DNA from: a virus
Length of the DNA: 63,071 bases
IMG/VR virus record: IMGVR_UViG_3300047470_000132
Location: 1-63,071 of that record
Strand: one strand, 5' to 3'
Numbering within the stretch: position 1 is the first letter of the stretch; every line of letters starts with the position of its first letter. Shown here piece after piece: positions 7,580 through 39,312 of the stretch. A program made the translations under genes and the position numbers. The notes under the pieces are model-generated. The model made no database searches, was not told where the DNA came from, and was given only the letters and a program-made list of their open reading frames with translations.

Positions 7580-7996
7580 ATGAAATATCCAGCAAAATTC
7601 GAAGCCGGCGAAACCGGCGCCGTGATCGTTACGTTCAGGGACATCCCTGAAGCTATCGCCCAAGGCGATGATGAGGCCGATGCCCACACTGAGGGAGCGA
7701 GTGCCTTACTAACTGCGATGGACTTCTACTTCGAGGATCGCCGGCCGGTTCCAGCGCCGTCCGAGCCAATCGAGGGCGAGCGCCTCATCGAGCTTCCTCT
7801 GAGCGCTTCCGCCAAGGTCATGCTGCTCAATGAGATGCTGGCCCAGAAGGTCCGGCCGGTCGACCTTGCGCGCCTTATGGACCTGAAGCCTCAGGAGGTG
7901 AACCGCATCGTTGACCTCAACCACGCAACCAAGATCGACACGCTCGCGGCAGCCTTTAAGGCAATGGGTCGCGAACTTGACTTGGTTGTGCGATAG
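7580..7996 (+). CDS. hicB: HicB-family antitoxin
   Basis: 138 residues from the ATG at 7580; an upstream in-frame ATG at 7568 is less well placed. The N-terminal domain (MKYPAKFEAG, then VTFRDIPEAIAQGDDEADA) is the degenerate RNase H-like HicB fold, and the C-terminal part (VRPVDLARLMDLKPQEVNRI) is a DNA-binding helix-turn-helix. It should neutralise HicA and autoregulate the operon. In a prophage the pair may stabilise lysogeny or abort other phages; that is inference. Confidence 0.88.
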   Translation: MKYPAKFEAGETGAVIVTFRDIPEAIAQGDDEADAHTEGASALLTAMDFYFEDRRPVPAPSEPIEGERLIELPLSASAKVMLLNEMLAQKVRPVDLARLMDLKPQEVNRIVDLNHATKIDTLAAAFKAMGRELDLVVR

Positions 7997-12260: not shown

Positions 12261-13396
12261 GCGGCCTGCCTCTCGCTCGGCGCGGCCACTCCGGCGCGCG
12301 CATTGCTGGATTTCTCGCTCATGGTCCTCATGGCCTCACGCAGCTCGCTGCGGCGCGCTTCTCGCTGCTCATCGGTCAACTGCACACCCTCTGGCGGCGC
12401 TGGCGGGATGTACGGACGCTCGATCTTGCGCAACTCCGGCAGCGGCGTGTAGCCCTTGAGCGGGTCAACCTCCCCCATCGCTGCACGGATGCGTTGCACG
12501 AAGTCTTTCGGGTATTCGCCCGGGCGGGGCGAAAGCGGCGGCGTCAGCATGGCGCCAGCGGCCTCCATACCGGCCTTCGACTCCCACCAGCCCGCCGGCA
12601 GCCGCGCCGCAGGAGCCACGTAGGGGCGGACCTCATCGAGCCAGCGGCCAGCACGCAGCCAGGTTGCGGGGTGCGGGATGTATTGACCGTCGTCGCGGAG
12701 CCAGTCGGCGCCGGCCTTCTGGCTCTCGATTGCCCCGAGGATCAGCGCGAACAGCTCGGCATTTGGCTTGAGCTTGGCCCATGCCTTCTGCGCATCCTGC
12801 TTACCGACCTTGCGCGGGTACGCTGCGTAAAACTGGTCGAACGACTTCGGCTCGGACCGACCGCCGTCAGCGCCAGATGACGAAGAGGGTTTAGGTTTTT
12901 TCTCTTGTTCCTGCTCCTGTTCCTGCTCTTGGCTTGCAAGGGGCTTTGAAGGGGCTTCGAAGAGGCTTCCTTGAATCCTATTGAATGACATACAGAACGC
13001 CTTCGAGTACATATCGAAGAAGGCCCCGAGATAAGGGTTTTCAGGGAGGGAGTCGTACTCGTTCTGCACGCCCTTGATACGCAGATCCTTGTCTTTCAAT
13101 TGATCGGCAATCTGGAAGCGCGCCATCTCCATCACCCAGACCATTTCGCTGTTGTCGTCGTACCGGCAGAACTCGGCTTCGATGCACCCCTGAAGCCCCT
13201 TCGAAGCCCCTTCGAAGCCCAATCCAGTCTCGTGAGCCATGAAGGCTTTAGGTAGGTAGTAGAGCCCAAGCATATTGGCGTGAGGGCACGTCAGCAGGTA
13301 CAGGGCCACAAGCTGCGCCTCCAGGCCATGCTTACGCAGGGCCTTGCCGGTCTGGCCGATCCAGAACTTTGGCGACACCTTTCCGTAGTCACGCAT
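12257..13396 (-). CDS. Phage replication initiation protein (O-like)
   Basis: 379 residues. The N-terminal 110 residues (VSPKFWIGQTGKALRKHGLEAQ... winged-helix pattern) match the DNA-binding part of phage replication initiators. A linker with a five-fold EQ repeat (EQEQEQEQE, about residues 155-165) and a Ser-rich tract follows. The C-terminal region (FDQFYAAYPRKVGKQDAQKAW) is the domain commonly shared by phage replisome-organiser proteins. No helicase or DnaC-type ATPase is visible beside it, so host helicase is presumably recruited directly. Confidence 0.72.
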   Translation of the reverse strand: MRDYGKVSPKFWIGQTGKALRKHGLEAQLVALYLLTCPHANMLGLYYLPKAFMAHETGLGFEGASKGLQGCIEAEFCRYDDNSEMVWVMEMARFQIADQLKDKDLRIKGVQNEYDSLPENPYLGAFFDMYSKAFCMSFNRIQGSLFEAPSKPLASQEQEQEQEQEKKPKPSSSSGADGGRSEPKSFDQFYAAYPRKVGKQDAQKAWAKLKPNAELFALILGAIESQKAGADWLRDDGQYIPHPATWLRAGRWLDEVRPYVAPAARLPAGWWESKAGMEAAGAMLTPPLSPRPGEYPKDFVQRIRAAMGEVDPLKGYTPLPELRKIERPYIPPAPPEGVQLTDEQREARRSELREAMRTMSEKSSNARAGVAAPSERQAA

Positions 13397-14099
13397 TGGC
13401 GCCCTCGACGATGTTTGCGTACCGCTTCGCCAGGAACACTTGGCCGGCGCCAGTTACCATCGTCGTGAACGTCGCGTGCGTCACGCCCTTGCTATCCTTA
13501 TAAGGCTGCTGCTCGATAACGGTGAAGTATTCGCGGTCAATGTACTTTTGATATGGCAGGTTGTTATCCAGGAGGATGCCGTCCGAGCGGAGGCGTCTAA
13601 AGAGCTTGTTGCGCCCGATTTTCAGGGTCTTGGCGATCTTCTCGATGTGGCAGGCGCCATCGATCGCGCGCACCGCCTCGGCAAAGGCCACTTTAGGAGC
13701 GTCCGCCGTCACCCTCACTTCAAGCGCCTGGCGCGCCTCGACTTGGTCGGCCCAGGCGCGCGCGGCCTCTGCTGGGTTTGTAAAGTCCGGCAATGCCATA
13801 GCGACCTGCTGCTCCAGCTCCTGCCAGCGGTCCACCAGGCGGCCAGTGAAAGCCGGCGACATCTGCGCTACGATCACGTAGCTATCTCGCTTCCCGACCA
13901 GATAGACCTGCTCGACCACATGATTGCCAGCCTTGTCGCCATCCACCAGTGGTGGCTGGCTGATCGTGCGCGACTTAACCAGGCGCTCGATCGTCCTTTT
14001 GACGCTGTCGTGCCGCGATTCCACTACTTCGGCGATCTCGCGACTCGACATGGTCGCCTCGGTGGCGCCGATGGTTTGCAGTGTCAGAATGCTTCCCAT
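13389..14099 (-). CDS. Rha-family antirepressor with KilA-C-type C-terminus
   Basis: 236 residues. The N-terminal Rha domain (MSSREIAEVVESRHDSVKRTIERL) is the signature of phage regulatory proteins that bind DNA or repressors. Residues 125-236 (CHIEKIAKTLKIGRNKLFRRLRSDGIL..., ending ...GAGQVFLAKRYAN) match the KilA-C antirepressor domain. It may inactivate the lysogenic repressor or another host regulator. A strong GGAGGGG site precedes the ATG. Confidence 0.85.
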   Translation of the reverse strand: MGSILTLQTIGATEATMSSREIAEVVESRHDSVKRTIERLVKSRTISQPPLVDGDKAGNHVVEQVYLVGKRDSYVIVAQMSPAFTGRLVDRWQELEQQVAMALPDFTNPAEAARAWADQVEARQALEVRVTADAPKVAFAEAVRAIDGACHIEKIAKTLKIGRNKLFRRLRSDGILLDNNLPYQKYIDREYFTVIEQQPYKDSKGVTHATFTTMVTGAGQVFLAKRYANIVEGANA

Positions 14100-21071: not shown

Positions 21072-21356
21072 TTAGCCGACGCCAGTGAGATCAGGTTTCT
21101 GGTTGGCGATGCAACGAGGTGCCGACGGCGAGCAAGACTGGGACCGGATGTATGCCCAGTCGGCATCCGGCAACAGATCCTCGCAGCGCACCTCCCCAGC
21201 GGACTCGCGCTCGAGCAGGATGCAGAGCTCGGCTTTGAATTTTTGGTGGCGGCTGACAGCCTTGCGGAGATAGCCCTCAGTGGTCTCACAAGCAGAGGCG
21301 TAGGCTGCGCGCTCCTCCCTTGATAGGGCATTGAGGTACTTAAGCAATTTATCCAT
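21072..21356 (-). CDS. YdaS/Cro-like regulator, first gene of the leftward operon
   Basis: 94 residues from the ATG at 21356; the ATG at 21362 is equally possible. The sequence has the YdaS/Cro-like pattern: MDKLLKYLNALSREERAAYA, TTEGYLRKA, and EDLLPDADWAYIR, the last being a hallmark of the family. It is divergent from the repressor and directly behind the leftward promoter; with the -10 ending at 21363 the transcript would be nearly leaderless. It probably acts as Cro, turning down the repressor in lytic growth. Confidence 0.78.
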   Translation of the reverse strand: MDKLLKYLNALSREERAAYASACETTEGYLRKAVSRHQKFKAELCILLERESAGEVRCEDLLPDADWAYIRSQSCSPSAPRCIANQKPDLTGVG

Positions 21357-21362
21357 GACCAT

Positions 21363-21391
21363 AATTTACCCGCAGGTAAAGTCGAAGTCAA
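21363..21391 (-). promoter_or_regulatory. Leftward early promoter
   Basis: Read leftward: TTGACT (21391-21386), 17-base spacer, TAAATT (21368-21363). It points at the YdaS-like gene. Operator 1 covers the -10 and spacer and operator 2 abuts the -35, so repressor binding would block it. Confidence 0.7.
21365..21380. promoter_or_regulatory. Repressor operator 1
   Basis: TTTACC-CGCA-GGTAAA, a perfect 6+4+6 palindromic site. The same site recurs at 21405, 24518, 24553, 29554 and 29587, and degenerately at 21390. Confidence 0.82.
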
Positions 21392-21405
21392 TACCTACAG
21401 GTCAT
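21390..21405. promoter_or_regulatory. Repressor operator 2 (degenerate)
   Basis: AATACC-TACA-GGTCAT keeps the central ACC/GGT of the operator motif. It lies 25 bases from operator 1 and 15 from operator 3, beside the leftward -35 element. Confidence 0.6.
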
Positions 21406-21420
21406 TTACCTTCAAGTAAA
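21405..21420. promoter_or_regulatory. Repressor operator 3
   Basis: TTTACC-TTCA-AGTAAA, one mismatch from the palindromic motif. It is the operator nearest the repressor gene (ATG at 21439), fitting an autoregulatory site. Confidence 0.75.
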
Positions 21421-21438
21421 TTGCTGATTGAATGCGGC

Positions 21439-21939
21439 ATGGACAAATTTGAAGTACGAAGACTTAACTTGCGAGCGGTGCTCAGGACGCACTGCGGCGG
21501 CAAAGCGGCGACCCTGGCAGACAAAATTGAGCGGTCGGCGTCTTATGTTTCTCGCATGCTTTACCCGGAGGGGAAGGCTGGGAAGAAGAGGATCGGCGAG
21601 GACATGAGAGACATCATCGAGGACGCGCTCATACTGGCTCGCGGCAGCCTTGATGACCAGGCATCTGCAGCCGCAGAGAATGGCGGGCTAGTCGGCGGTG
21701 CTAGCGGCGGAGCGGCTCTCCGCTTGTCATTGGTTGAGCCAAGCAAATCTCAGTCGGACGACGAGCTACTTAAGGACGATACGGCGCAGGAAACAACTAT
21801 GGAGCGCCTGAATTGGAAAGAGAAGAGGCTTTTGGAGCTTTACCGGCGAGCGACGAAGGACGGCAGGACGATGATCTATGACGCGGCAATTGTCGCACCA
21901 AAGCAAGGGCACCCAAACCCTCTTGATCAGCCGGAGTAG
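21439..21939 (+). CDS. Probable lysogeny repressor (CI-like, no peptidase domain)
   Basis: 166 residues from the ATG at 21439. The N-terminal 65 residues (FEVRRLNLRAVL..., KAATLADKIERSASYVSRML) form a phage repressor HTH; the remainder is a short helical segment with no LexA/S24 peptidase Ser-Lys pair. It is divergent from the YdaS-like gene across three operators. Lack of self-cleavage means induction must use another route, for example the Rha-type antirepressor. Convergent with the next leftward gene with no gap. Confidence 0.78.
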   Translation: MDKFEVRRLNLRAVLRTHCGGKAATLADKIERSASYVSRMLYPEGKAGKKRIGEDMRDIIEDALILARGSLDDQASAAAENGGLVGGASGGAALRLSLVEPSKSQSDDELLKDDTAQETTMERLNWKEKRLLELYRRATKDGRTMIYDAAIVAPKQGHPNPLDQPE

Positions 21940-22128
21940 TCACGCCCCTACGGCCTCTGCGGGCATCGTGCGCTTGTACTGGGCCGAAAGATCGACCAGC
22001 ATCTCCTGGGCGCAAGCTCTCACTGTACGGAAATTCAAGATAAGGCGCCGCTCGTCGGCGGTTAACTGAAGCTCATCGTTATCGGAGATAATGACCGGCG
22101 ACGCTTTTCGAATGGTCTCATCCTGCAT
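21940..22128 (-). CDS. Small hypothetical protein in the immunity region
   Basis: 62 residues with a strong GGGAGGCGAG site, ending one base from the repressor stop. The helical C-terminal half (TADERRLILNFRTVRACAQEMLVDLSAQY) suggests a small dimer. It is transcribed toward the repressor gene, so its message would be antisense to the repressor tail if it read through. No family recognised. Confidence 0.65.
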   Translation of the reverse strand: MQDETIRKASPVIISDNDELQLTADERRLILNFRTVRACAQEMLVDLSAQYKRTMPAEAVGA

Positions 22129-22230
22129 TTTTCTCGCCTCCCTGCAAAGTCTCTAGATCCACTTGTTGCACACGCGTTTCCAGGCGAGCAACAAATGCAT
22201 GGCTTTTTTCTGCACAGCACATCGCATAAT

Positions 22231-22290
22231 GTAACTGGTTCCAATGTTACCTAAGCGCAATATGCTCTATTTATTGTAACGATAGGTAAG
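22231..22290. promoter_or_regulatory. Candidate divergent promoter/operator region
   Basis: Contains the imperfect palindrome GTAAC...GTTAC at 22231-22250 and, 25 bases on, TGTAAC-GATA-GGTAAG at 22275-22290, which partly matches the repressor operator. It lies between a leftward small gene and the ribbon-helix-helix gene, so either protein could bind here. Confidence 0.4.
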
Positions 22291-22375
22291 CAATGCGCAT
22301 TTTTTCCTGTAAAAGTGCCATAGGTTGTGTGGCACTTGCAACACTTCTGTTCAGAAACAGGTAAAAATCGCGCGG

Positions 22376-22633
22376 ATGAAAGAAAAGCCGCCGAAAAATC
22401 CCGCCATCAAAACCGCCATGCGCATCCCCGCAGACCTGCACGCGGACCTTAAGGACGCCGCCCTACGCGCAGACCACTCTATGAACGACGAGATCGTCAG
22501 TCGCCTCACTGCAGCTGCCGGTGGCGCCTCACTCTCGGCCGTGCTCGAGCAGAACCGGCAGATGATGACTGAGATCAAGAAGACCCAGGAGATGGTCCAG
22601 GCGATCATCGCAGCCATGGGCCCGCGCCGATAG
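22376..22633 (+). CDS. Arc/Mnt-type ribbon-helix-helix regulator
   Basis: 85 residues. After a basic start (KEKPPKNPAIKTAMR), IPADLHADLKDAALRADHSMNDEIVSRL is the strand-helix-helix of the Arc family, followed by a coiled-coil (LSAVLEQNRQMMTEIKKTQEMV) for tetramerisation. As in P22 immI, it may control an antirepressor or accessory genes. It has only a weak ribosome site (GCGCGG). Confidence 0.85.
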   Translation: MKEKPPKNPAIKTAMRIPADLHADLKDAALRADHSMNDEIVSRLTAAAGGASLSAVLEQNRQMMTEIKKTQEMVQAIIAAMGPRR

Positions 22634-22652
22634 CCATCCTGTGCGCCCCAAC

Positions 22653-22672
22653 TACTGTATATGCGTACAGTA
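22653..22672. promoter_or_regulatory. LexA-type SOS box
   Basis: TACTGTATATGCGTACAGTA has the full CTGT-N8-ACAG core and differs from the E. coli consensus at three central bases. It lies about 25 bases upstream of CTGACA (22697) and TAAAAT (22719), a plausible promoter for the lipoprotein gene. Confidence 0.78.
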
Positions 22673-22696
22673 TGAGACAGAGTTTAGCGTACTTTA

Positions 22697-22724
22697 CTGA
22701 CAAAGTGCCATGCCTGAATAAAAT
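22697..22724 (+). promoter_or_regulatory. Candidate promoter of the lipoprotein moron
   Basis: CTGACA, 16-base spacer, TAAAAT, just downstream of the LexA-type box and about 105 bases before the lipoprotein start. Confidence 0.5.
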
Positions 22725-22830
22725 TTTTTGAAGGCATCTCTAGCGTGGGAATTGGTGAGATTTCTGGACTATTGGCGGGATATACTACCCGGCGCTACAG
22801 CGCGCCTGGATGCCACTTATGGAGACTTCA

Positions 22831-23370
22831 ATGAAGACACTGCGCCTCACTGCTTCTCTGCTCGCGATTATCCTGCTGACCGGCTGTGTAACGTATGCTC
22901 CTGCCCCTCCACCATGGGCGCCGCTAACTGACCCGACCAAGGTTTCACTGGCTACGCGGGTCACGCATGACGAATACAAGAAGACGACAAATTTTATTGG
23001 CGCCAACGCTTCGGAACACAACCAGCTGCATTTGCGTGGGTGGCGCGATGATAGAACGAAGGTCGCCAGCTTCCAGCTTTACGCAACCTCGTTCTACTCG
23101 GATCACTGGCGCTTTTATAACGAGGCCTATGACTCCGATGGCAACAAGTTGGACTTCATATCCATCGACAAGAAAGTCGACTCCTGCAGCGGCGGCCGCG
23201 GCTGTTATTTCGAAGAAACAGTGGGCCTGAACGTATCGCGTAAATATCTCGACGAACACCAGGATACCGGCATCCACTACAAGGTCAGCGGCAAGGCAGG
23301 CGAATTCACCGGCTTTTTGCCGGCCGCCTACGTAAAGGGCTTTCTCGCTAGTGTAGATTCTGCCAGCTGA
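22831..23370 (+). CDS. Prophage lipoprotein (lysogenic conversion or superinfection exclusion candidate)
   Basis: 179 residues from the ATG at 22831 (GGAG site); a frame further upstream lacks support. A type II signal peptide with lipobox LTGC puts the lipid on Cys19. The mature protein has a paired-cysteine region (CSGGRGC, around residue 115) and no known enzyme motif. It has its own promoter region beside the repressor, the classic place for a moron. Small phage lipoproteins often block receptor or DNA entry, but that is inference. Confidence 0.75.
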   Translation: MKTLRLTASLLAIILLTGCVTYAPAPPPWAPLTDPTKVSLATRVTHDEYKKTTNFIGANASEHNQLHLRGWRDDRTKVASFQLYATSFYSDHWRFYNEAYDSDGNKLDFISIDKKVDSCSGGRGCYFEETVGLNVSRKYLDEHQDTGIHYKVSGKAGEFTGFLPAAYVKGFLASVDSAS

Positions 23371-23405
23371 TAGCATTTATCCAAATTGCGCAGGACTAGA
23401 CAATG

Positions 23406-24059
23406 TTAGCCGCCGCGAAAATCGGCAGTTATGTTTCCTTTTCCGTGATTGCAGTCTTCGCACAGCACCTGTAGGTTTTCGATGTCGAGAGCGAGATGAG
23501 GGAATTTCCTGCGCGACTTAACATGGTCCACATGCATTACTGCGCCAGTCTCAGGAGAGGCTCCGCAGCATTGGCAGCGCCGACCGTACTTCTGCAGTGC
23601 TTGGAACCTCAACTGGCGCCATTCGTATGATTGAAGGAATTCGGGGCTGTTGACGTAGTAATACTTTTCATCGAACGCAACAGGGACAGTGCCAGGCATT
23701 ACAGCTGGCTCATGCTTTGAAAACAGGGCAACCGGTCCTTTGGGCTTGCGAGGTGCCCTCGGCTTCGCATTAACCGACACTCGCGGCGCCCGCGGCACTT
23801 GCCACCGTCTTGCCAGCTTCTCCTCGGCAGCCAATTTCGCAAGTTTTCTAGCCATCCTCTTTTGCGACATATTGTCGCCGCGTCGACCGAGGGCGGCGAG
23901 CATCTTACCCTCGTCTACTTCACGGTCTTTGTTCTTCACCATCCAGCCCCGACCTAGCCTTTCCTCGATACCGGCTGCTGCCATCTCCAACTTCGAAAGG
24001 CCATTGAGGCCCGACATGTGCTTTTCAATGAATTCGCCAAGCGTCACCTTCTTCTCCAT
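23406..24059 (-). CDS. HNH endonuclease
   Basis: 217 residues from the ATG at 24059. A basic helical N-terminal two thirds (RMARKLAKLAAEEKLARRW, then PRAPRKPKG) precedes the nuclease: CQCCGASPETG, MHVDHVKSRRKFPHLAL, NLQVLCEDCNHGKGN, with all HNH and zinc residues intact. It lies against the surrounding rightward genes between the lipoprotein gene and a rightward terminator, suggesting insertion. The in-frame ATG at 24110 would place the terminator inside the gene and is less likely. Confidence 0.85.
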   Translation of the reverse strand: MEKKVTLGEFIEKHMSGLNGLSKLEMAAAGIEERLGRGWMVKNKDREVDEGKMLAALGRRGDNMSQKRMARKLAKLAAEEKLARRWQVPRAPRVSVNAKPRAPRKPKGPVALFSKHEPAVMPGTVPVAFDEKYYYVNSPEFLQSYEWRQLRFQALQKYGRRCQCCGASPETGAVMHVDHVKSRRKFPHLALDIENLQVLCEDCNHGKGNITADFRGG

Positions 24060-24080
24060 CGCCGATCGGCGAAAAATTTT

Positions 24081-24101
24081 GGCCGATTTCGGCCTTTTTT
24101 T
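24081..24101 (+). terminator. Intrinsic terminator (rightward)
   Basis: GGCCG-ATTT-CGGCC followed by seven T residues. It would end rightward transcription from the lipoprotein gene, 711 bases upstream, now separated from it by the HNH gene. Confidence 0.75.
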
Positions 24102-24517
24102 GGTTTGCACCCTATATGAGTACTATTGAAGTTCTATTCTTGGCTGTTTTTGAGAAGGTATTTCTAAGCTAGCACTTAATTACATGCCTCTAGGCTTACC
24201 GGTTCCGAAGCAGCACCTCCCAGCAGCCAAGTAAAAACTTGGACACCGTGAGGGCGACATGCCATCTGAGTTGACTCGGACGCTTCGCTTATAGGACAGA
24301 CGTTGGACCGTTGCCGGCACCCATCGATTGAGGCTCTGTCCACTATCACCCACCTCTGCGGCCACTCGACACCTTCTTGCCGCCCATCCACTACGCCCGT
24401 TTCGCTGGTTCACCCTTGGGTACTGCGTAGCGATCTTCATCGCTCACTCTTGCCGGTGGCTGCCGACGAGTGAAGCGGTCAGCCAAACTCAGCTGACACG
24501 CAAATTCTACACATTTT
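24102..24517. other. Stretch without a supportable gene
   Basis: About 415 bases between the rightward terminator and the first operator of the recombination operon. Leftward frames of 70-90 codons exist at 24176-24440 but lack ribosome sites and have shadow-like composition. I see nothing else here. Confidence 0.5.
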
Positions 24518-24533
24518 TTTACCCGCAGGTATA
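24518..24533. promoter_or_regulatory. Repressor operator 4
   Basis: TTTACC-CGCA-GGTATA, a near match to the motif with the same central tetramer as operator 1. It is 35 bases upstream of operator 5 and upstream of the -35 element. Confidence 0.75.
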
Positions 24534-24541
24534 TTTTTCTC

Positions 24542-24570
24542 TTGCGTTTGTTTTTACCTAGAGGTAAAGT
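24542..24570 (+). promoter_or_regulatory. Repressor-controlled promoter of the recombination operon
   Basis: TTGCGT (24542-24547), 17-base spacer, TAAAGT (24565-24570). The -10 overlaps operator 5. The same promoter with the same operators occurs at 29576-29604. Confidence 0.7.
24553..24568. promoter_or_regulatory. Repressor operator 5
   Basis: TTTACC-TAGA-GGTAAA, perfect arms, covering the spacer and -10 of the promoter at 24542-24570. Confidence 0.8.
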
Positions 24571-24607
24571 AGCTCTAACGCCCAAGCAAACTCGCCAGGA
24601 GACAACC

Positions 24608-24697
24608 ATGACCCCAGCAGAACTCGCAACTACCGCCAGCAAACAGTCGCCAGCCTTCGATTCCTCGGCACCGCTCGTGCCGGCCACGCTGGGTTAA
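24608..24697 (+). CDS. 29-residue small protein, first frame of the recombination operon
   Basis: A short frame with an excellent CCAGGAGA site seven bases before the ATG, product MTPAELATTASKQSPAF... and ending three bases before the next gene. It may be a genuine peptide or a leader that couples translation to the downstream gene. Confidence 0.5.
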   Translation: MTPAELATTASKQSPAFDSSAPLVPATLG

Positions 24698-24700
24698 GCC

Positions 24701-24943
24701 ATGGAACTCGAACTTCAAGGCCAGCGCTTCATGGTCAGCCCCTGCGGGTTCAAGTCCGACTGGCTTGACGTCGCCAGCATCGCGGAAGAGGTGCCGGACT
24801 GGACGGATTGCACCGATATGTCGGATGCCGAGACCGATCAACTGATGGTGCGCCGGATGCAGTCCGCTCAGCGTGAGGCGCGCGACGAGACTCGTCTGGC
24901 TATCGCGGAGTTCAACCGGGCCTACGACGACAACCGATTCTGA
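24701..24943 (+). CDS. Hypothetical acidic protein
   Basis: 80 residues, acidic, with WLDVASIAEEVPDWTDCTDMSDAE in the middle and a helical C-terminus. It starts three bases after the small frame upstream. No family recognised; small acidic early phage proteins often bind host enzymes. Confidence 0.65.
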   Translation: MELELQGQRFMVSPCGFKSDWLDVASIAEEVPDWTDCTDMSDAETDQLMVRRMQSAQREARDETRLAIAEFNRAYDDNRF

Positions 24944-25027
24944 TTTCGCCCAAGCGGCGCGCCTGGGAGCACAACGCGCGCCTTGCCCTGATCTCGGGTG
25001 AGGAAATAGAGGGAGGGGGATCTCAAA

Positions 25028-25066
25028 TGCCCTGGCAGCCTGGAACAGACAGGCACTCCCGATAAA
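25028..25066 (+). CDS. Possible 12-residue leader peptide
   Basis: MPWQPGTDRHSR, preceded by GAGGGAGGGGG, one of the strongest ribosome sites in the window. Its stop codon lies inside the 5' arm of the hairpin at 25057-25093, an arrangement like attenuators or ribosome-controlled structures. Confidence 0.35.
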
Positions 25067-25093
25067 CGCATTCCGCGAGTGCGCTTATCGGGA
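25057..25093 (+). ncRNA. Stable stem-loop in the 25-kb untranslated stretch
   Basis: Arms TCCCGATAAACGCA (25057-25070) and TGCGCTTATCGGGA (25080-25093) pair over 14 positions with one mismatch and a nine-base loop. There is no T run, so it is not a simple terminator. It sits in a 393-base stretch between two genes of one operon. Confidence 0.5.
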
Positions 25094-25336
25094 CTGGATG
25101 ACGGTTGAGGGTACTCAAGACGGTCCCCGTAAATGTCTAGCTGAACCCCAGGTTGGTGACCGAAAAACCTGACAGACCGGAAAGACGGGCAACGCGGGGA
25201 AGCATGGAGCAGCACAGTTCCGCGTAAAGGCAAAGCCATGCAGCAGTGCGATACGGCGGTACCCAGCCCGCGCCGGAGACGTAACCGGCACTGAACAACA
25301 ACCGCCGGCGGCGCCGGCCAGAACGAGGAGCAGGGG

Positions 25337-25969
25337 ATGGACAGCAGCACGAACGAGCCGATCGAAATCATCGATGTAATTGCAAAGCCCTATATGACCG
25401 GCAGCAAGACGATCTGCTACTACGTCGTGGTCGACCGCGCGCCGAAGCATGTCTACCAGCGCGACGGCAACCACCTGACCGCGCACGACAGCGGCTTCTA
25501 CGACTTCATGCAGATCGAGCCCGGCTCGCGCAATGCGTTCGCAGGCCGGAAGTTTTCCATCAACCTCACCGATGGTTCGCAGTTTGAATGCAACGGGCAG
25601 GTGTGGTCGGTTGGCCCGATTGGTGGCATCGATGCGGTGCAGGTCGGCGTCGCCACGCTCCAGCAGCTGGAGAGCTGCTATGTGTTCTTCGGCGGCTACG
25701 TGGCGCGCGAGAAGCTGTTGGCATGGCTCGCGTCGAACAAGCCGTCCCGTGACTACTACAAGTACGACCCGCGCGAGACGCTGACGTGGCAGGACAAACT
25801 GTATCGCGACCATCCCGATTTCGACACCTCAGTGTCGCCAAAACGCGCCCGCAAGCTGCGCAAACGTGGGGTCACGATTCGCCGTCATCCAATGACCGGC
25901 CGCCCAGGCTGGTCGAAGAGTTACGAGCGCAAGAAGGCTGTAATCCTCACACGTCAGGAGGTCGCATGA
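25337..25969 (+). CDS. Hypothetical protein of the recombination operon
   Basis: 210 residues with a AGGAGCAGGGG site. The N-terminal 150 residues are beta-rich (KTICYYVVVDRAPKHVY...), with aromatic-rich VFFGGYVAREKLLAW; the last 60 residues are very basic (KRARKLRKRGVTIRRH). A nucleic-acid-binding role fits but no family is recognised. Overlaps the next short frame. Confidence 0.65.
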   Translation: MDSSTNEPIEIIDVIAKPYMTGSKTICYYVVVDRAPKHVYQRDGNHLTAHDSGFYDFMQIEPGSRNAFAGRKFSINLTDGSQFECNGQVWSVGPIGGIDAVQVGVATLQQLESCYVFFGGYVAREKLLAWLASNKPSRDYYKYDPRETLTWQDKLYRDHPDFDTSVSPKRARKLRKRGVTIRRHPMTGRPGWSKSYERKKAVILTRQEVA

Positions 25970-26022
25970 CCGCCGCCCACATCGCCCGCCGCCTGGTGCG
26001 CAAGATCGCTGAGGCGAAATAA
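25966..26022 (+). CDS. 18-residue micro-protein
   Basis: MTAAHIARRLVRKIAEAK, an amphipathic basic helix, with a CAGGAGG site and an ATGA overlap with the gene upstream. The site quality makes expression likely; function unknown. Confidence 0.45.
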   Translation: MTAAHIARRLVRKIAEAK

Positions 26023-26051
26023 ATCGAACGAACTACAACTGGAGATGAGAA

Positions 26052-27068
26052 ATGAATGACGTAATCGAGATGTCCCGCCGCGAGGTCGCGGGCCTGACTG
26101 CGGGCGAAGCGCACCGCTACTCGGCGGTTGAGATTCGCGAGCGAGTAAATCTCGTGCAGGAGGTGATGCGCGGGATCATGAAGGAAGGGACGCACTACGG
26201 AAAAATTCCCGGCACCCCGAAGCCGACCCTTTACAAACCAGGCGCCGAAGTGCTGTGCGTAGCGTTTCGTATCGCACCGTCGTACCGTGTTGAAGACCTG
26301 AGCGACGCCCTCACTGCCCGCTTTCGTGTGACGTGCATCGGTACGCACCAAGTGTCGGGAATCGTGCTGGGCGAAGGTGTCGGTGAATGCTCGTCAGCCG
26401 AGGAGAAGTACAAGTGGCGCAAGGCCGTTTGCACTGAGGAGTTCGACGCCACGCCGGAGTCACTACGCAGACTCAAGTTCTCGCTTTGGAATAACAAGGT
26501 CGAGAAAAAAGTTCAGGTGCGCACCGAGGCGGCAGACCAGTCCAACACTGTGCTCAAGATGGCCTGTAAGCGCGCCAAGATCGCGATGACGCTCGATGTC
26601 ACCGCAGCTTCCGATATGTTCACTCAGGATATTGAGGACCTGCCGGAGGAACTGCGCACGCATGAAACTGCGGAAGCCGGGCAGCCGGCGATGACCGCCC
26701 TCGCCTCCGAATGGGTCGCGAAAGCCAATGCCGCGGCGACGGCCGACGATCTTGCAGCCGTCTGGAAGGCCGGCGTAAAAGCGATCAACGAAGCCAAAGA
26801 CGTAACCGCATCGAACGCATTCAAGGCGGCGGTTACCTCCCGCGGCGAAGCCATCAAAGCAGCGACACCGGCAGCAACGCCAGCGGCCAAACCCGCGCCT
26901 ATCCCCGACGCCCTCGCCGGCCTGCTAGCGGACATGGAGGCTGCAGCCGACGAAGGCATGTTGGCATTCGAGGCGTCATGGGGAAGCCTGTCGAAAGCTA
27001 CGCAAGCCAGCCTGGCGGGGCAATACGATGCGCTGGTGGCGCGCGCGGCAGCAAAGGATGCGCCGTGA
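26052..27068 (+). CDS. Phage recombination-associated protein
   Basis: 338 residues. The N-terminal 170 residues carry a widely conserved phage signature, VMKEGTHYGKIPG-like (here MKEGTHYGKIPGTPKP) and LYKPGAEVLCVAF, followed by Lys-rich and QSNTVLKMACKRAK segments. The C-terminal 130 residues are Ala-rich. Proteins of this type are regularly found directly before YqaJ exonucleases and are thought to be the annealing or ssDNA-binding partner; this is an inference from gene order. Confidence 0.72.
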   Translation: MNDVIEMSRREVAGLTAGEAHRYSAVEIRERVNLVQEVMRGIMKEGTHYGKIPGTPKPTLYKPGAEVLCVAFRIAPSYRVEDLSDALTARFRVTCIGTHQVSGIVLGEGVGECSSAEEKYKWRKAVCTEEFDATPESLRRLKFSLWNNKVEKKVQVRTEAADQSNTVLKMACKRAKIAMTLDVTAASDMFTQDIEDLPEELRTHETAEAGQPAMTALASEWVAKANAAATADDLAAVWKAGVKAINEAKDVTASNAFKAAVTSRGEAIKAATPAATPAAKPAPIPDALAGLLADMEAAADEGMLAFEASWGSLSKATQASLAGQYDALVARAAAKDAP

Positions 27069-27718
27069 TCTTCGTCGAATGCTTACAAGGTAGCCCCGAG
27101 TGGCACCAGGCCCGCGCCGGCGTGATCACGGCATCCTGCTTTGGTGAGGCGATCTCGCGCATGTCGCGCACGTCAGGAAAGCGCAAGGCAGGCGATCCGA
27201 CGGCGGCGTCTGACAAGTACGCCGCAGACCTGGCGATCGAGCGCATTAGTGGCAAGCCTTACGGCGCTCCGCCAAAGGCCTGGGTGCTAGACCGCGGACA
27301 CGAAATGGAGGCGTTGGCGCGCATGCACTACGAGGCGCGCACCGAGTCGCTCGTTACCGAGGCTGGCCTCGTCCTCACCGAGAATCGCCTCTTCGGCTAC
27401 TCGACCGATGGTTTTGTCGGAGACGACGGCCTCATCGAAATCAAGGCGCCCATCGACAGCCTCAAGATCATCGAGGTCATGGATGGCGACCTGTCCGAAT
27501 ACCAGCATCAAATGCAGGGTGGCATGTGGATTACCGGTCGCAAATGGTGCGATTTCATCATGTACGTGCCTGATTTACGCAACGCCGGCAAGGATCTGTA
27601 CGTCAAGCGCGTGATGCGCGATGACGCCTTTATCGACGCGATGGTTCTTGAGTTGGCCGCATTCGCTAGCCGCGTCTCCGACCGTGAAATTCTCTTCAAA
27701 CTTAAGGAGGCAGCATGA
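27065..27718 (+). CDS. YqaJ-type exonuclease (lambda Exo family)
   Basis: 217 residues from a GTG that overlaps the preceding stop. It shows YqaJ landmarks: GSPEWHQARAGVITAS near the start (binds the DNA end), a central DRGHEMEALAR with the catalytic Glu, DGFVGDDGLIEIKAP with the D-x-E-x-K metal centre (about residues 117-132), and YQHQMQGGMWITG. It degrades one strand of double-stranded ends for phage recombination. Confidence 0.93.
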   Translation: MIFVECLQGSPEWHQARAGVITASCFGEAISRMSRTSGKRKAGDPTAASDKYAADLAIERISGKPYGAPPKAWVLDRGHEMEALARMHYEARTESLVTEAGLVLTENRLFGYSTDGFVGDDGLIEIKAPIDSLKIIEVMDGDLSEYQHQMQGGMWITGRKWCDFIMYVPDLRNAGKDLYVKRVMRDDAFIDAMVLELAAFASRVSDREILFKLKEAA

Positions 27719-29013
27719 CCACGACTACCACCGCCGAACTGGCGGCACTCTCCGGCACCGACCTTACCACCCTGCCGCCGGCAGCGCGCGCCGCGGTCGC
27801 ACTCAAGAGCGAGCAGACCCGCAAGGACTTGGCTTTGCTGGTCGAGCAGTCGGCCGGCATCACTGCTGTCCTGAATGCCGATGGCCGCGAGCAGGCGCAC
27901 CGTGTCGCGATGACCCTCAAGGGTGCCCGCGTCACGATCGAGAAGACCGGCAAGGAAGTGCGCGACGACGCGACCAAGTTCTCTAAGGCGGTCATCGCCG
28001 AGGAAAAGGATTTGATTGCCATCATTGAGCCAGAGGAGGTTCGCATCCTGGCGCTGCGTGATGCTTGGGATGCACGGATCGCCGCTGAGAAGGCTGCGAA
28101 GATCGCTGCTGAGCGGGCGCGCGTCGAGGTGATTCAGGGTCGTATCGAGGCCATTCGCCGCGCACCATTGGCGGTCGCCGGAGAGTCGTCTACCGCAATC
28201 CTTGTCACCCTCGAGTTGGTGCGAGACGCGATCATTGACGACTCGTTCGAGGAACTCAAGGATCAGGCAATGGCAGCGCGATCCGAGGCATTCAATGCAC
28301 TGGAAGCGGCGCACGCCAGGGCTGTCGAGGCCGAAGTTGCCGCCCGCGCAGCCGAAGATGCTCGCAAGGCCGAAGCCGCCCGCATCGAGGCTGAGCGCGC
28401 CGAACTGGCCCGGCTGCGCGCCGAAGCGGCCGAGCGCGAGCGCCTGGCGAAGGCTGATGCCGATCGCGTTGCAGCCGAGCAGGCCGAGGTGGCTCGACAG
28501 CTGGCTGAGCAGCAAGCCGAGCTACAGCGTCAGCGTGAAGCCGAATCTGCACGGGCGCGCGCCGAGCAAGAGGAACGCGACCGCGCCGCAGCCGATGCGC
28601 AGCGCCGACTCGCCGAGCAGGCTGCGGAGCTGGCTGAGCAGCGCGCCGCTTTCGCTCGCCAACAGCTTGAAGCGGCAGAGCGCGCGCAGGCAGCCGCGCA
28701 GGTAGAACGCGATCATGCCGAAGGGCTGCCGATGAACGCGCAGTTCGACGCCGACCGAGAGGCTGAGCGCGTGCGCCTGCAGGAACTGGCCGACCAAGCC
28801 GCCGCCGATGCTCGTGAACGTGCTGACGATGAGCGCGCTACCGGGCTGCCGGCTGGCGCGCTGGGCGCGGATGCGCTAGCGGATGTCGACGAAGGCCCCG
28901 ACGACAACGAGATCATTATGCTGGTATGCGAGGTCTACGGCATGACGTTTGCCGCGGCAGTCGACCGTCTGGCAGCAATCGACTTCGACGCCGTGCGGAA
29001 GGCTCAGCCTTGA
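27715..29013 (+). CDS. Long coiled-coil protein of the recombination operon
   Basis: 432 residues, overlapping the exonuclease stop in ATGA. Residues 1-120 are a globular head (SGTDLTTLPPAARAAV...GREQAHRVAMTLKGARVTIEK) seen in phage DUF1351-like proteins, residues 130-360 an Ala/Glu/Arg coiled coil like TolA, and the last 40 residues a small domain (DNEIIMLVCEVYGMTFAAAV). It may tether or regulate the recombination enzymes. The repetitive coil makes exact family assignment uncertain. Confidence 0.7.
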   Translation: MTTTTTAELAALSGTDLTTLPPAARAAVALKSEQTRKDLALLVEQSAGITAVLNADGREQAHRVAMTLKGARVTIEKTGKEVRDDATKFSKAVIAEEKDLIAIIEPEEVRILALRDAWDARIAAEKAAKIAAERARVEVIQGRIEAIRRAPLAVAGESSTAILVTLELVRDAIIDDSFEELKDQAMAARSEAFNALEAAHARAVEAEVAARAAEDARKAEAARIEAERAELARLRAEAAERERLAKADADRVAAEQAEVARQLAEQQAELQRQREAESARARAEQEERDRAAADAQRRLAEQAAELAEQRAAFARQQLEAAERAQAAAQVERDHAEGLPMNAQFDADREAERVRLQELADQAAADARERADDERATGLPAGALGADALADVDEGPDDNEIIMLVCEVYGMTFAAAVDRLAAIDFDAVRKAQP

Positions 29014-29465
29014 CTCGCCCGAAGTTCGAACAGCGCCGGATCCTGCTCCGCAGCCCCGATCAGGTCGAGCGCGCCATTGCCCTGCTCCGCAATGTGCCAC
29101 TCGACAGCCTCAAGCCCCTTGAGCTGCTGGTCCGCGAAGAGGCCAGGGCTCGAAAGCTCGATCAGCAGGGCTTAATGTGGGCGGGACCGCTGGCTGACTT
29201 GGCGGCGCAGGCATGGTGCGACGGTCGCCAGTTCAGTGCGGAAGTCTGGCACGAGTTCTGTAAAAAAGAATTCCTTGCGGAGGAGTTCGATCCAGAGCTT
29301 TGCCTTGAGGGTTATCGTAAATGGGACGTTGACCCGGCCGGCAACCGCGTGCTGGTCGGCTCAACCACCCAACTGACGGTCAAGGGGATGGCGCAGTACT
29401 TGGAGCAGATCTTCGCCCTCGGCGGCTCGCTGGGAGTCGAATTCCAAGAGCCGCAGCGCAGCTGA
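29010..29465 (+). CDS. ninB: NinB-like recombination protein
   Basis: 151 residues from a TTG overlapping the preceding stop (TTGA). The block GLMWAGPLADLAAQAWCDGRQFSAEVWHEF and LVGSTTQLTVKGMAQYLEQI fit NinB (Orf), which binds ssDNA/SSB and can replace host RecFOR functions. It closes the recombination operon just before the next repressor-controlled promoter. Confidence 0.82.
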   Translation: MTRPKFEQRRILLRSPDQVERAIALLRNVPLDSLKPLELLVREEARARKLDQQGLMWAGPLADLAAQAWCDGRQFSAEVWHEFCKKEFLAEEFDPELCLEGYRKWDVDPAGNRVLVGSTTQLTVKGMAQYLEQIFALGGSLGVEFQEPQRS

Positions 29466-29553
29466 TACCGACGCAACTAGCCTGCATATTGCGCCGAATA
29501 CCTTCGGAATACAGTCAATCAAACGCGACAGGCAAGCCAATTCCCGGCAATTT

Positions 29554-29569
29554 TTTACCTGAGGGTATA
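29554..29569. promoter_or_regulatory. Repressor operator 6
   Basis: TTTACC-TGAG-GGTATA, upstream of the second rightward promoter, 33 bases before operator 7. It has the same GGTATA arm as operator 4. Confidence 0.75.
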
Positions 29570-29575
29570 TTTTGC

Positions 29576-29604
29576 TTGCGCTTGCTTTTACCCCGAGGTA
29601 AAGT
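29576..29604 (+). promoter_or_regulatory. Repressor-controlled promoter of the rdgC-int operon
   Basis: TTGCGC (29576-29581), 17-base spacer, TAAAGT (29599-29604). The promoter, its spacing and overlapping operator copy those at 24542-24570. Confidence 0.7.
29587..29602. promoter_or_regulatory. Repressor operator 7
   Basis: TTTACC-CCGA-GGTAAA, perfect arms, lying over the spacer and -10 of the promoter at 29576-29604. Confidence 0.8.
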
Positions 29605-29642: not shown

Positions 29643-29876
29643 ATGACGCAGACGACTCACCCTAGTAAGGAACTAGTCCGCGAACTCATGGCGAAGCGCT
29701 GGGAATCGAGAGAGCCGCCACCGAGCCCGGAGCGAATCAAGGAGCAACTCGGATGGCGGTTGATTGAGGCAGAGCGCGCCGCGGTGCAGCTGCTGGAAGC
29801 ACGAAGCGCGCTGCAACCCTTTCGCTCGATGTTGAGCCGCCGGCACGGCGCCAGTGCACAAAAACAGAAACCCTAG
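29643..29876 (+). CDS. Hypothetical protein, first gene of the rdgC-int operon
   Basis: 77 residues, highly charged, helical (LVRELMAKRWESREPPPSPERIKEQLG...). A GGGGCC-type site and its place 39 bases behind the promoter make it the first gene of the operon. No family recognised. Confidence 0.65.
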   Translation: MTQTTHPSKELVRELMAKRWESREPPPSPERIKEQLGWRLIEAERAAVQLLEARSALQPFRSMLSRRHGASAQKQKP

Positions 29877-38253: not shown

Positions 38254-39312
38254 ATGCGACCGAAGACGACCGGGCGAAAGCTGCCGCCGCGCATGCTCGA
38301 GCGGAAAAGAACACTGAAGTCCGGAGAGGTCTGGGTCGGGTACTACTACAATGGCCGGGACGATACCGGCAAGCGTAAGGAGATTCCGCTCGGCACGGAC
38401 TTGGTGAAGGCAAAGCGGAAGTGGGCCGAGCTTGAGTGCGTAGACGTGCCGCTCGATGCATCGCTGATGAAGTATGCCTTCGACCAGTACGAGCGAGACA
38501 TCCTGCCGAAGAAGAAGCCATCGACGCAGCGGGAGAACAAGCTCTGTCTGTCGCAGCTGCGACCAGCATTCGACAAGGCGCCTATCGAACGGATCACCCC
38601 ACAGGACATCGCGCGCTATCGGGACGCTCGGACGGCCCCGGTACGCGCCAACCGCGAGATCGCCCTGCTCTCCCACGTCTTCAACATGGCCCGCGAGTGG
38701 GGCTTCACGAAGCGGGATAACCCATGCCGCGGTGTCCGGAAGAACAAAGAGGCGCCGCGCGACTACTACGCCGAGGCTGACGTCTGGGATGCCGTGCACA
38801 AAGCCGGCAGCCAGGCGCTCCGCGATGCGATGGACTTGGCTTACCTTTCGGGCCAGCGACCGGCAGACGTGCTCAAAATGAGCAAGAGCGACATCCGTAA
38901 CGATGAGCTGCATGTCCTGCAGAACAAGACCCGACACGCGCTTCGCATCACCTTGCACGTCGGAGGAGAGTCAACGCAGTTGGGGGCATGCCTCGATCGG
39001 CTGCTTGCGCGCCAGGTGAAGTCGATGAGCGGGGAGCTAATCTGCACGGAGCAGGGGCAGCCCATGACGATGAAGATGCTGCGCGATCGATTCGAGGCTG
39101 CTCGCACCGCAGCGGCCAAGCAGGCCGAGAAAGCGCGCCAGGATGATCTGGCGAAGCGCATCAGGGCGTTCCAGTTCCGTGACATCCGACCAAAAGCGGC
39201 TAGCGAAATGAGCAGCCTGCAGGACGCCAGTGACCTGCTGGGCCACACTGACAAGCAGATCACGAAGCGGGTTTATCGCCGCGCCGGCGAGGTCGTAAAA
39301 CCGACAAAGTGA
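38254..39312 (+). CDS. int: Tyrosine recombinase integrase
   Basis: 352 residues. The catalytic domain shows Arg202 in SGQRPAD, Lys225 in QNKT, the box II FRDIR (309-312, with Arg in place of the usual His), His331 in LGHT and the nucleophile Tyr341 in VYRR. The N-terminal arm-binding domain (about 1-60) and core-binding domain (about 70-150) are intact. It catalyses integration at the tRNA-Ser-like attP core 129 bases downstream. It is under the repressor-controlled promoter at 29576. Confidence 0.95.
   Translation: MRPKTTGRKLPPRMLERKRTLKSGEVWVGYYYNGRDDTGKRKEIPLGTDLVKAKRKWAELECVDVPLDASLMKYAFDQYERDILPKKKPSTQRENKLCLSQLRPAFDKAPIERITPQDIARYRDARTAPVRANREIALLSHVFNMAREWGFTKRDNPCRGVRKNKEAPRDYYAEADVWDAVHKAGSQALRDAMDLAYLSGQRPADVLKMSKSDIRNDELHVLQNKTRHALRITLHVGGESTQLGACLDRLLARQVKSMSGELICTEQGQPMTMKMLRDRFEAARTAAAKQAEKARQDDLAKRIRAFQFRDIRPKAASEMSSLQDASDLLGHTDKQITKRVYRRAGEVVKPTK

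Follow-up and report, generated by a model that had tools for sequence, protein, structure and literature searches.

The window, by which we mean the whole 63,071-base virus record analysed here, is a 63-kb temperate-phage record that carries seven TTTACC-N4-GGTAAA sites in three intergenic promoter regions. Three of the operators, which constitute OR, separate a YdaS/Cro-like gene read leftward from a CI-like gene read rightward, and the other two regions, which we term OL1 and OL2, each precede a rightward operon. The features of the locus are as follows.

21072..21356, minus strand: Cro-like lytic regulator of the YdaS family (PF15943 above cut-off; phrog_35 repressor)
21363..21391, minus strand: PR, TTGACT-17-TAAATT by consensus scan, predicted promoter of cro, Ant, replication and terminase genes
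21365..21380: OR1, TTTACCCGCAGGTAAA, no mismatch; overlaps the -10 of leftward PR; kept in relatives
21390..21405: OR2, AATACCTACAGGTCAT; centre 41.5 bp upstream of the cI ATG; shares bases with the end of the PR -35; position conserved
21405..21420: OR3, TTTACCTTCAAGTAAA, one mismatch; centre 26.5 bp before the cI ATG, within PRM
21428..21433, plus strand: proposed PRM -10, TTGAAT, 5 nt before the ATG
21439..21939, plus strand: CI-like prophage repressor, 166 aa (phrog_5736, phrog_12107), with an N-terminal HTH domain
24518..24533: OL1 upstream operator, TTTACCCGCAGGTATA, one mismatch
24542..24570, plus strand: PL1, TTGCGT (24542-24547), 17-bp spacer, TAAAGT (24565-24570), predicted driver of the recombination operon
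24553..24568: OL1 downstream operator, TTTACCTAGAGGTAAA; overlaps the PL1 -10
24608..29465, plus strand: recombination block, read below as an insertion; leader ORFs and the 25337 ORF, then the four genes that follow (Pfam and PHROGs)
26052-27068, plus strand: annealing-type protein, assigned from gene order and from the matching position of an annotated annealing protein in phage Rb1
27065-27718, plus strand: YqaJ exonuclease
27715-29013, plus strand: coiled-coil protein
29010-29465, plus strand: NinB
29554..29569: OL2 upstream operator, TTTACCTGAGGGTATA, one mismatch
29576..29604, plus strand: PL2, TTGCGC (29576-29581), 17-bp spacer, TAAAGT (29599-29604), predicted driver of the 77-aa gene/RdgC operon
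29587..29602: OL2 downstream operator, TTTACCCCGAGGTAAA; overlaps the PL2 -10
29643..29876, plus strand: leader gene of 77 aa (MTQTTHPS...); in relatives with a single OL, its ortholog is the first gene downstream of that OL
38254-39312, plus strand: integrase gene, further downstream on the same strand as the OL operons

The operator arms are perfect at 21365, 24553 and 29587 and carry one mismatch at 21405, 24518 and 29554, giving six sites in the window with at most one arm mismatch where 0.03 are expected; none of 100 shuffles reached six. The copy at 21390 has four arm mismatches. Using a matrix trained on 59 sites, all from phages other than the window phage, we scanned the entire record and found the seven sites at ranks 1-7, from 26.2 down to 18.6 bits, with the 21390 copy in seventh place at the lower score; no site of that quality occurred in any of 20 Markov controls. 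All seven coordinates in the original prediction, including the degenerate one, were thus confirmed, and the whole-genome scan that it had proposed gave no good site beyond them. The eighth-ranked sequence, at 10.7 bits, lies inside the repressor gene at 21560, where it encodes a conserved LYPEGK motif, and was dismissed as an operator. The motif ends are AT-rich and overlap -10 boxes, as might be found for chance palindromes or convergent promoter sequences, but given the excess over expectation, the spacing conserved in dozens of phages and a motif that switches with immunity type (see below), we regard this origin as exceedingly improbable. No publication on the motif in phages came up when the literature was searched for its arms.

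At OR, the -10 of PR overlaps the 21365 site, just as the -10s of PL1 and PL2 overlap their downstream operators. OR1 and OR2 are 25 bp apart. OR2 and OR3 are spaced by only 15 bp and share one base, an arrangement that differs from lambda; with this spacing, simultaneous occupancy of OR2 and OR3 is uncertain. The proposed -10 of PRM is a weak match in the window. Among 34 distinct upstream regions, however, 31 contain a -10 match of at least 4/6 ending about six bases before the cI ATG, compared to 33% in shuffles, and only one has a Shine-Dalgarno sequence before cI. The repressor mRNA is therefore predicted to be leaderless. OR2, whose centre is 41.5-42.5 bp from the ATG in nearly all the phages, would then occupy the position of a class-II activator at PRM. 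With a cro start at 21356, the PR transcript would be nearly leaderless too (region 21356-21391, minus strand); the cro leader of coliphage mEp043 is longer.

Over residues 1-79, the CI-like repressor has 56% identity to the cI annotated in mEp043. The window protein has no Pfam match, and comparison of its sequence with solved structures gave nothing useful. Its predicted structure consists of a helical N-domain (pLDDT 86-90) and two C-terminal helices, and a fold search with this model returned a weak match, to be taken as a lead only, to the Rep-Ant complex of a Salmonella temperate phage (5d50, E 0.2, TM 0.23). An S24 self-cleavage domain is typical of lambdoid CI proteins, though no universal feature. 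The tail is short in the repressors of the window and its nearest relatives, and we did not find the S24 peptidase domain in those of the window, L010, L011, L014, L018 and L070, but it is present in those of L016, L019, L022, L025 and mEp043, which belong to the same operator family. Since its presence differs within one operator family, the C-terminal tail has been swapped while DNA recognition was retained. We also noted a Rha/KilAC antirepressor-like protein encoded at 13389-14099 on the leftward lytic (minus) strand, with homologs in L012, L013 and L070 (63-77%); its product is a candidate, and only that, for a factor that may inactivate a non-cleavable repressor.

The divergently encoded YdaS/Cro-like protein is 94-96 aa long; its ORF may begin at 21362, and the conserved start is at 21356. 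Both profile and fold place it in the YdaS/Cro family: the nearest folds to its predicted structure are CP-933P YdaS (8co2) and a Xylella prophage Cro (3bd1), the 8co2 match having a probability of 1.00 and a TMt of 0.72 but an E of 0.03. Its homolog in mEp043 (40%) is the annotated Cro. Experiments on CP-933P showed that YdaS plays the part of Cro at shared operators, with both repressor and YdaS binding the same region (Jurenas et al., 2021; PMC8630535), and by analogy the window protein probably binds the same operators as the CI-like repressor.

We examined which loci carry the motif. Among the 48 loci with a homolog of the repressor N-domain, 34 have sites (80 sites at ≤1 mismatch), and most of the remainder have forms with two mismatches at the equivalent positions. 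The motif is missing from loci that have just the recombination genes or the 77-aa gene in common with the window but not the repressor, and sites were found at just two of 41 loci without a repressor homolog, L030, a fragment of the window phage type, and L067, which has a Cro homolog. The centres of OR1, OR2 and OR3 lie 66.5, 41.5 and 26.5 bp before the cI ATG (±1, rarely +3) in 30-odd phages of beta- and gammaproteobacteria; hosts of the N-domain homolog carriers include Herbaspirillum, Paraburkholderia, Klebsiella, Edwardsiella, Yersinia and Brenneria. Natural swaps point the same way. L092 and L095 differ from the window in their repressors while retaining the 77-aa-gene homolog and RdgC, and the operator pairs before their 77-aa gene are CTATCC-N6-GTATAG-like in L092 and CAGTCAGACT-like in L095, in each case recurring between the phage's own divergent repressor genes. 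OR and OL thus switch as a pair, which fits a single repressor that recognises both. A motif that follows the repressor family and changes with the repressor across dozens of phages supports, at the level of sequence, the predicted one-repressor regulon over three promoters, one leftward and two rightward.

We considered whether the sites might instead serve the YdaS/Cro-like protein alone, or some other regulator of the phage, the 166-aa protein not being the main repressor. Paraburkholderia phage IPK (L067) is the case in favour, in that it pairs a Cro homolog with related ATTACC...GGTAAT-type sites at 7938-7992 and has no detectable homolog of the window CI; it is a mixed switch, with Cro and repressor from different lineages. 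Nevertheless, at nearly every locus the motif goes with the CI N-domain, the mEp043 counterpart carries the annotation cI, and the joint binding of one region by the CP-933P proteins (PMC8630535) is what lambda behaviour would lead one to expect, leaving this alternative very unlikely. Where the original prediction gave the 21439 product as the sole binder, the YdaS/Cro-like protein probably uses the sites as well.

The two rightward promoters have the copied layout previously described for 24.5 and 29.5 kb, namely TTGCG(T/C), a 17-bp spacer and TAAAGT, with operator start-to-start spacings of 35 at OL1 and 33 at OL2. The PL1 geometry recurs in relatives, and where their OL spacing is 25 bp the upstream operator reaches the -35, just as at PR. 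A general rule of spacing by one helical turn (15, 25, 35) was considered and set aside as soft in view of cases of 33 and 34. OL1 precedes the annealase, exonuclease and NinB genes and OL2 precedes the 77-aa gene and RdgC. OR and OL1 are 3.1 kb apart in the window; the OL-OR distance in lambda is about 2.3 kb. With an antirepressor-like protein, a replication protein and terminase encoded leftward, and the annealing-type protein, YqaJ exonuclease, NinB, RdgC and integrase rightward, the gene plan is a mirror image of that of lambda. Among the first genes tested after PL1 and PL2, no PHROGs match to an antiterminator was found and nothing N-like was recognised.

Comparison with relatives bears on the origin of the third cluster. 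In L010, L011, L012, L013 and L070, a single OL stands before the 77-aa-gene homolog, which is followed by RdgC in all but L012, where RdgC was not found, and the recombination block is absent from the OL position. In the window, L009 and L030, two OL pairs flank the block, with the second preceding the 77-aa gene. Relative to the single OL of L010/L011, the upstream flank is better matched by window OL1 (0.78/0.76) than by OL2 (0.58/0.47), whereas the downstream leader is better matched by OL2 (0.88/0.85) than by OL1 (0.68/0.65); across L010-L013 and L070, the OL2 leader is 0.85-0.90 identical to that of the single OL. The simplest history suggested by these comparisons is that the ~5-kb recombination block was inserted at OL with the operator-promoter copied, which would account for the 29.5-kb cluster.

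The clusters, three in number and up to 8 kb apart, had been taken to resemble dispersed immunity more than the compact lambda OL/OR pair. We weighed a system of the P1 or mycobacteriophage L5 type, where a single repressor works through numerous operators or stoperators in scattered places. The window has only seven sites, however, all over early promoters in OR or OL positions with none in genes or late regions, and nothing beyond the early promoters, where P1 C1 sites and L5 stoperators would be sought, exceeds the eighth-ranked score. The divergent cI and cro genes, three OR sites and PL pair are lambdoid, as in mEp043. The first two clusters are a standard OR and OL, and only the third is extra, a copy of OL. 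We therefore disfavour the dispersed interpretation, to which we attach very little probability.

The locus shares with lambdoid immC regions the divergent repressor and Cro genes with three operators, the overlap of these operators with predicted PR and PRM, and the same operators at a PL driving recombination and integration genes; it departs from them in having two OL pairs rather than one OL and in lacking the S24 cleavage domain in CI. Lambda itself has three OR sites, with OR2 near -42 of a leaderless cI start, and operator-covered PR and PL. Unlike the window, lambda has unrelated repressor and Cro sequences, one PL, a wider OR2-OR3 spacing and a cleavable CI. In mEp043, for which cI, Cro, cII, N and PL are annotated, the motif is present at OR and at the annotated PL before N. 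In addition to the homologous CI N-domain (over 79 aa) and Cro, mEp043 shares with the window the operator motif, an OR whose three sites have matching distances, and an OL pair over the annotated PL; its differences are a CI with an S24 peptidase, an N gene that follows, and a single OL pair with sites 25 bp apart, 1.2 kb from OR. No clear mutation was located in mEp043 c-1 relative to the mEp043 record, the 20,237 bp around cI being identical. The CP-933P paaR2/ydaS-ydaT region likewise has a YdaS-family Cro, a short CI analog, a shared OR, an OL at PL and a leaderless repressor mRNA, predicted in the window and shown for paaR2 (PMC8630535), but differs in its GTTTAGTAA operator half-sites, toxin-antitoxin genes in the operon and one PL. 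The immB regions of N15 and phiKO2 also have three OR sites and two OL sites for one repressor (PMC4488713), but these are linear plasmid prophages with no second OL pair, and the N15 OL is upstream of repA.

We conclude with considerable confidence that the locus forms a lysis-lysogeny switch of the lambda type in which OL/PL has been duplicated. What can be read directly from the genomes is that the sites exist and are conserved, that they go with the repressor, and that the architecture is duplicated. The two OL pairs, also found in L009 and L030, lead us to call the switch a variant, and its unusual features are the duplicated PL and a repressor without an S24 cleavage domain. From homologs we infer binding, activation, Cro competition and looping. 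The CI-like repressor and its YdaS/Cro-like antagonist would compete for one operator motif. CI at OR1 and OR2 would shut the leftward lytic PR and, from the class-II activator position of OR2, stimulate transcription of its own leaderless mRNA; Cro at OR3 would switch that transcription off. The same repressor would shut PL1 with its recombination operon and PL2 with the RdgC operon. PL1 and PL2 would descend from one OL promoter, the ~5-kb cassette having entered at OL with a copied operator-promoter and thereby kept every early operon under the same immunity.

With a single operator alphabet and a nearly fixed geometry, the lambda-type switch spans phages of many beta- and gammaproteobacteria, and a duplicated OL offers a way to add early modules with immunity unbroken. 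For these largely uncharacterised phages, leaderless cI, OR2 activation and immunity specificity become predictions, and swap pairs of the L092/L095 type are suited to testing operator-repressor specificity. More speculatively, and in our view less likely than not, operator-promoter units might serve as recombination seams. A gene block would recombine into OL by way of the repeated operator sequence and duplicate the promoter, so that the new operon would immediately come under control of the resident repressor. The result would be a CI network of three nodes in which OR could loop to OL1 or, alternatively, to OL2.

Megablast against named phages gave no close relative. L070 (JANINJ010000013.1), a close prophage relative, is in a MAG labelled Xanthobacteraceae, possibly through mis-binning; L069, the other close relative with a named host, is from the betaproteobacterial Herbaspirillum. 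We also observed, adjoining cI, a gene for an Arc-like ribbon-helix-helix protein (22376-22633, plus strand) that is kept in L009, L010, L011 and L070 and has a distant homolog in L092, with Pfam matches below cut-off. P22 immI carries the Arc regulator, and by this likeness the Arc-like protein could be a second regulator. Inverted repeats upstream of its gene, at 22230-22300 (GTTACCTAAGCGC / GTAACGATAGGTAAGCAATGCGC), are perhaps its own operator.
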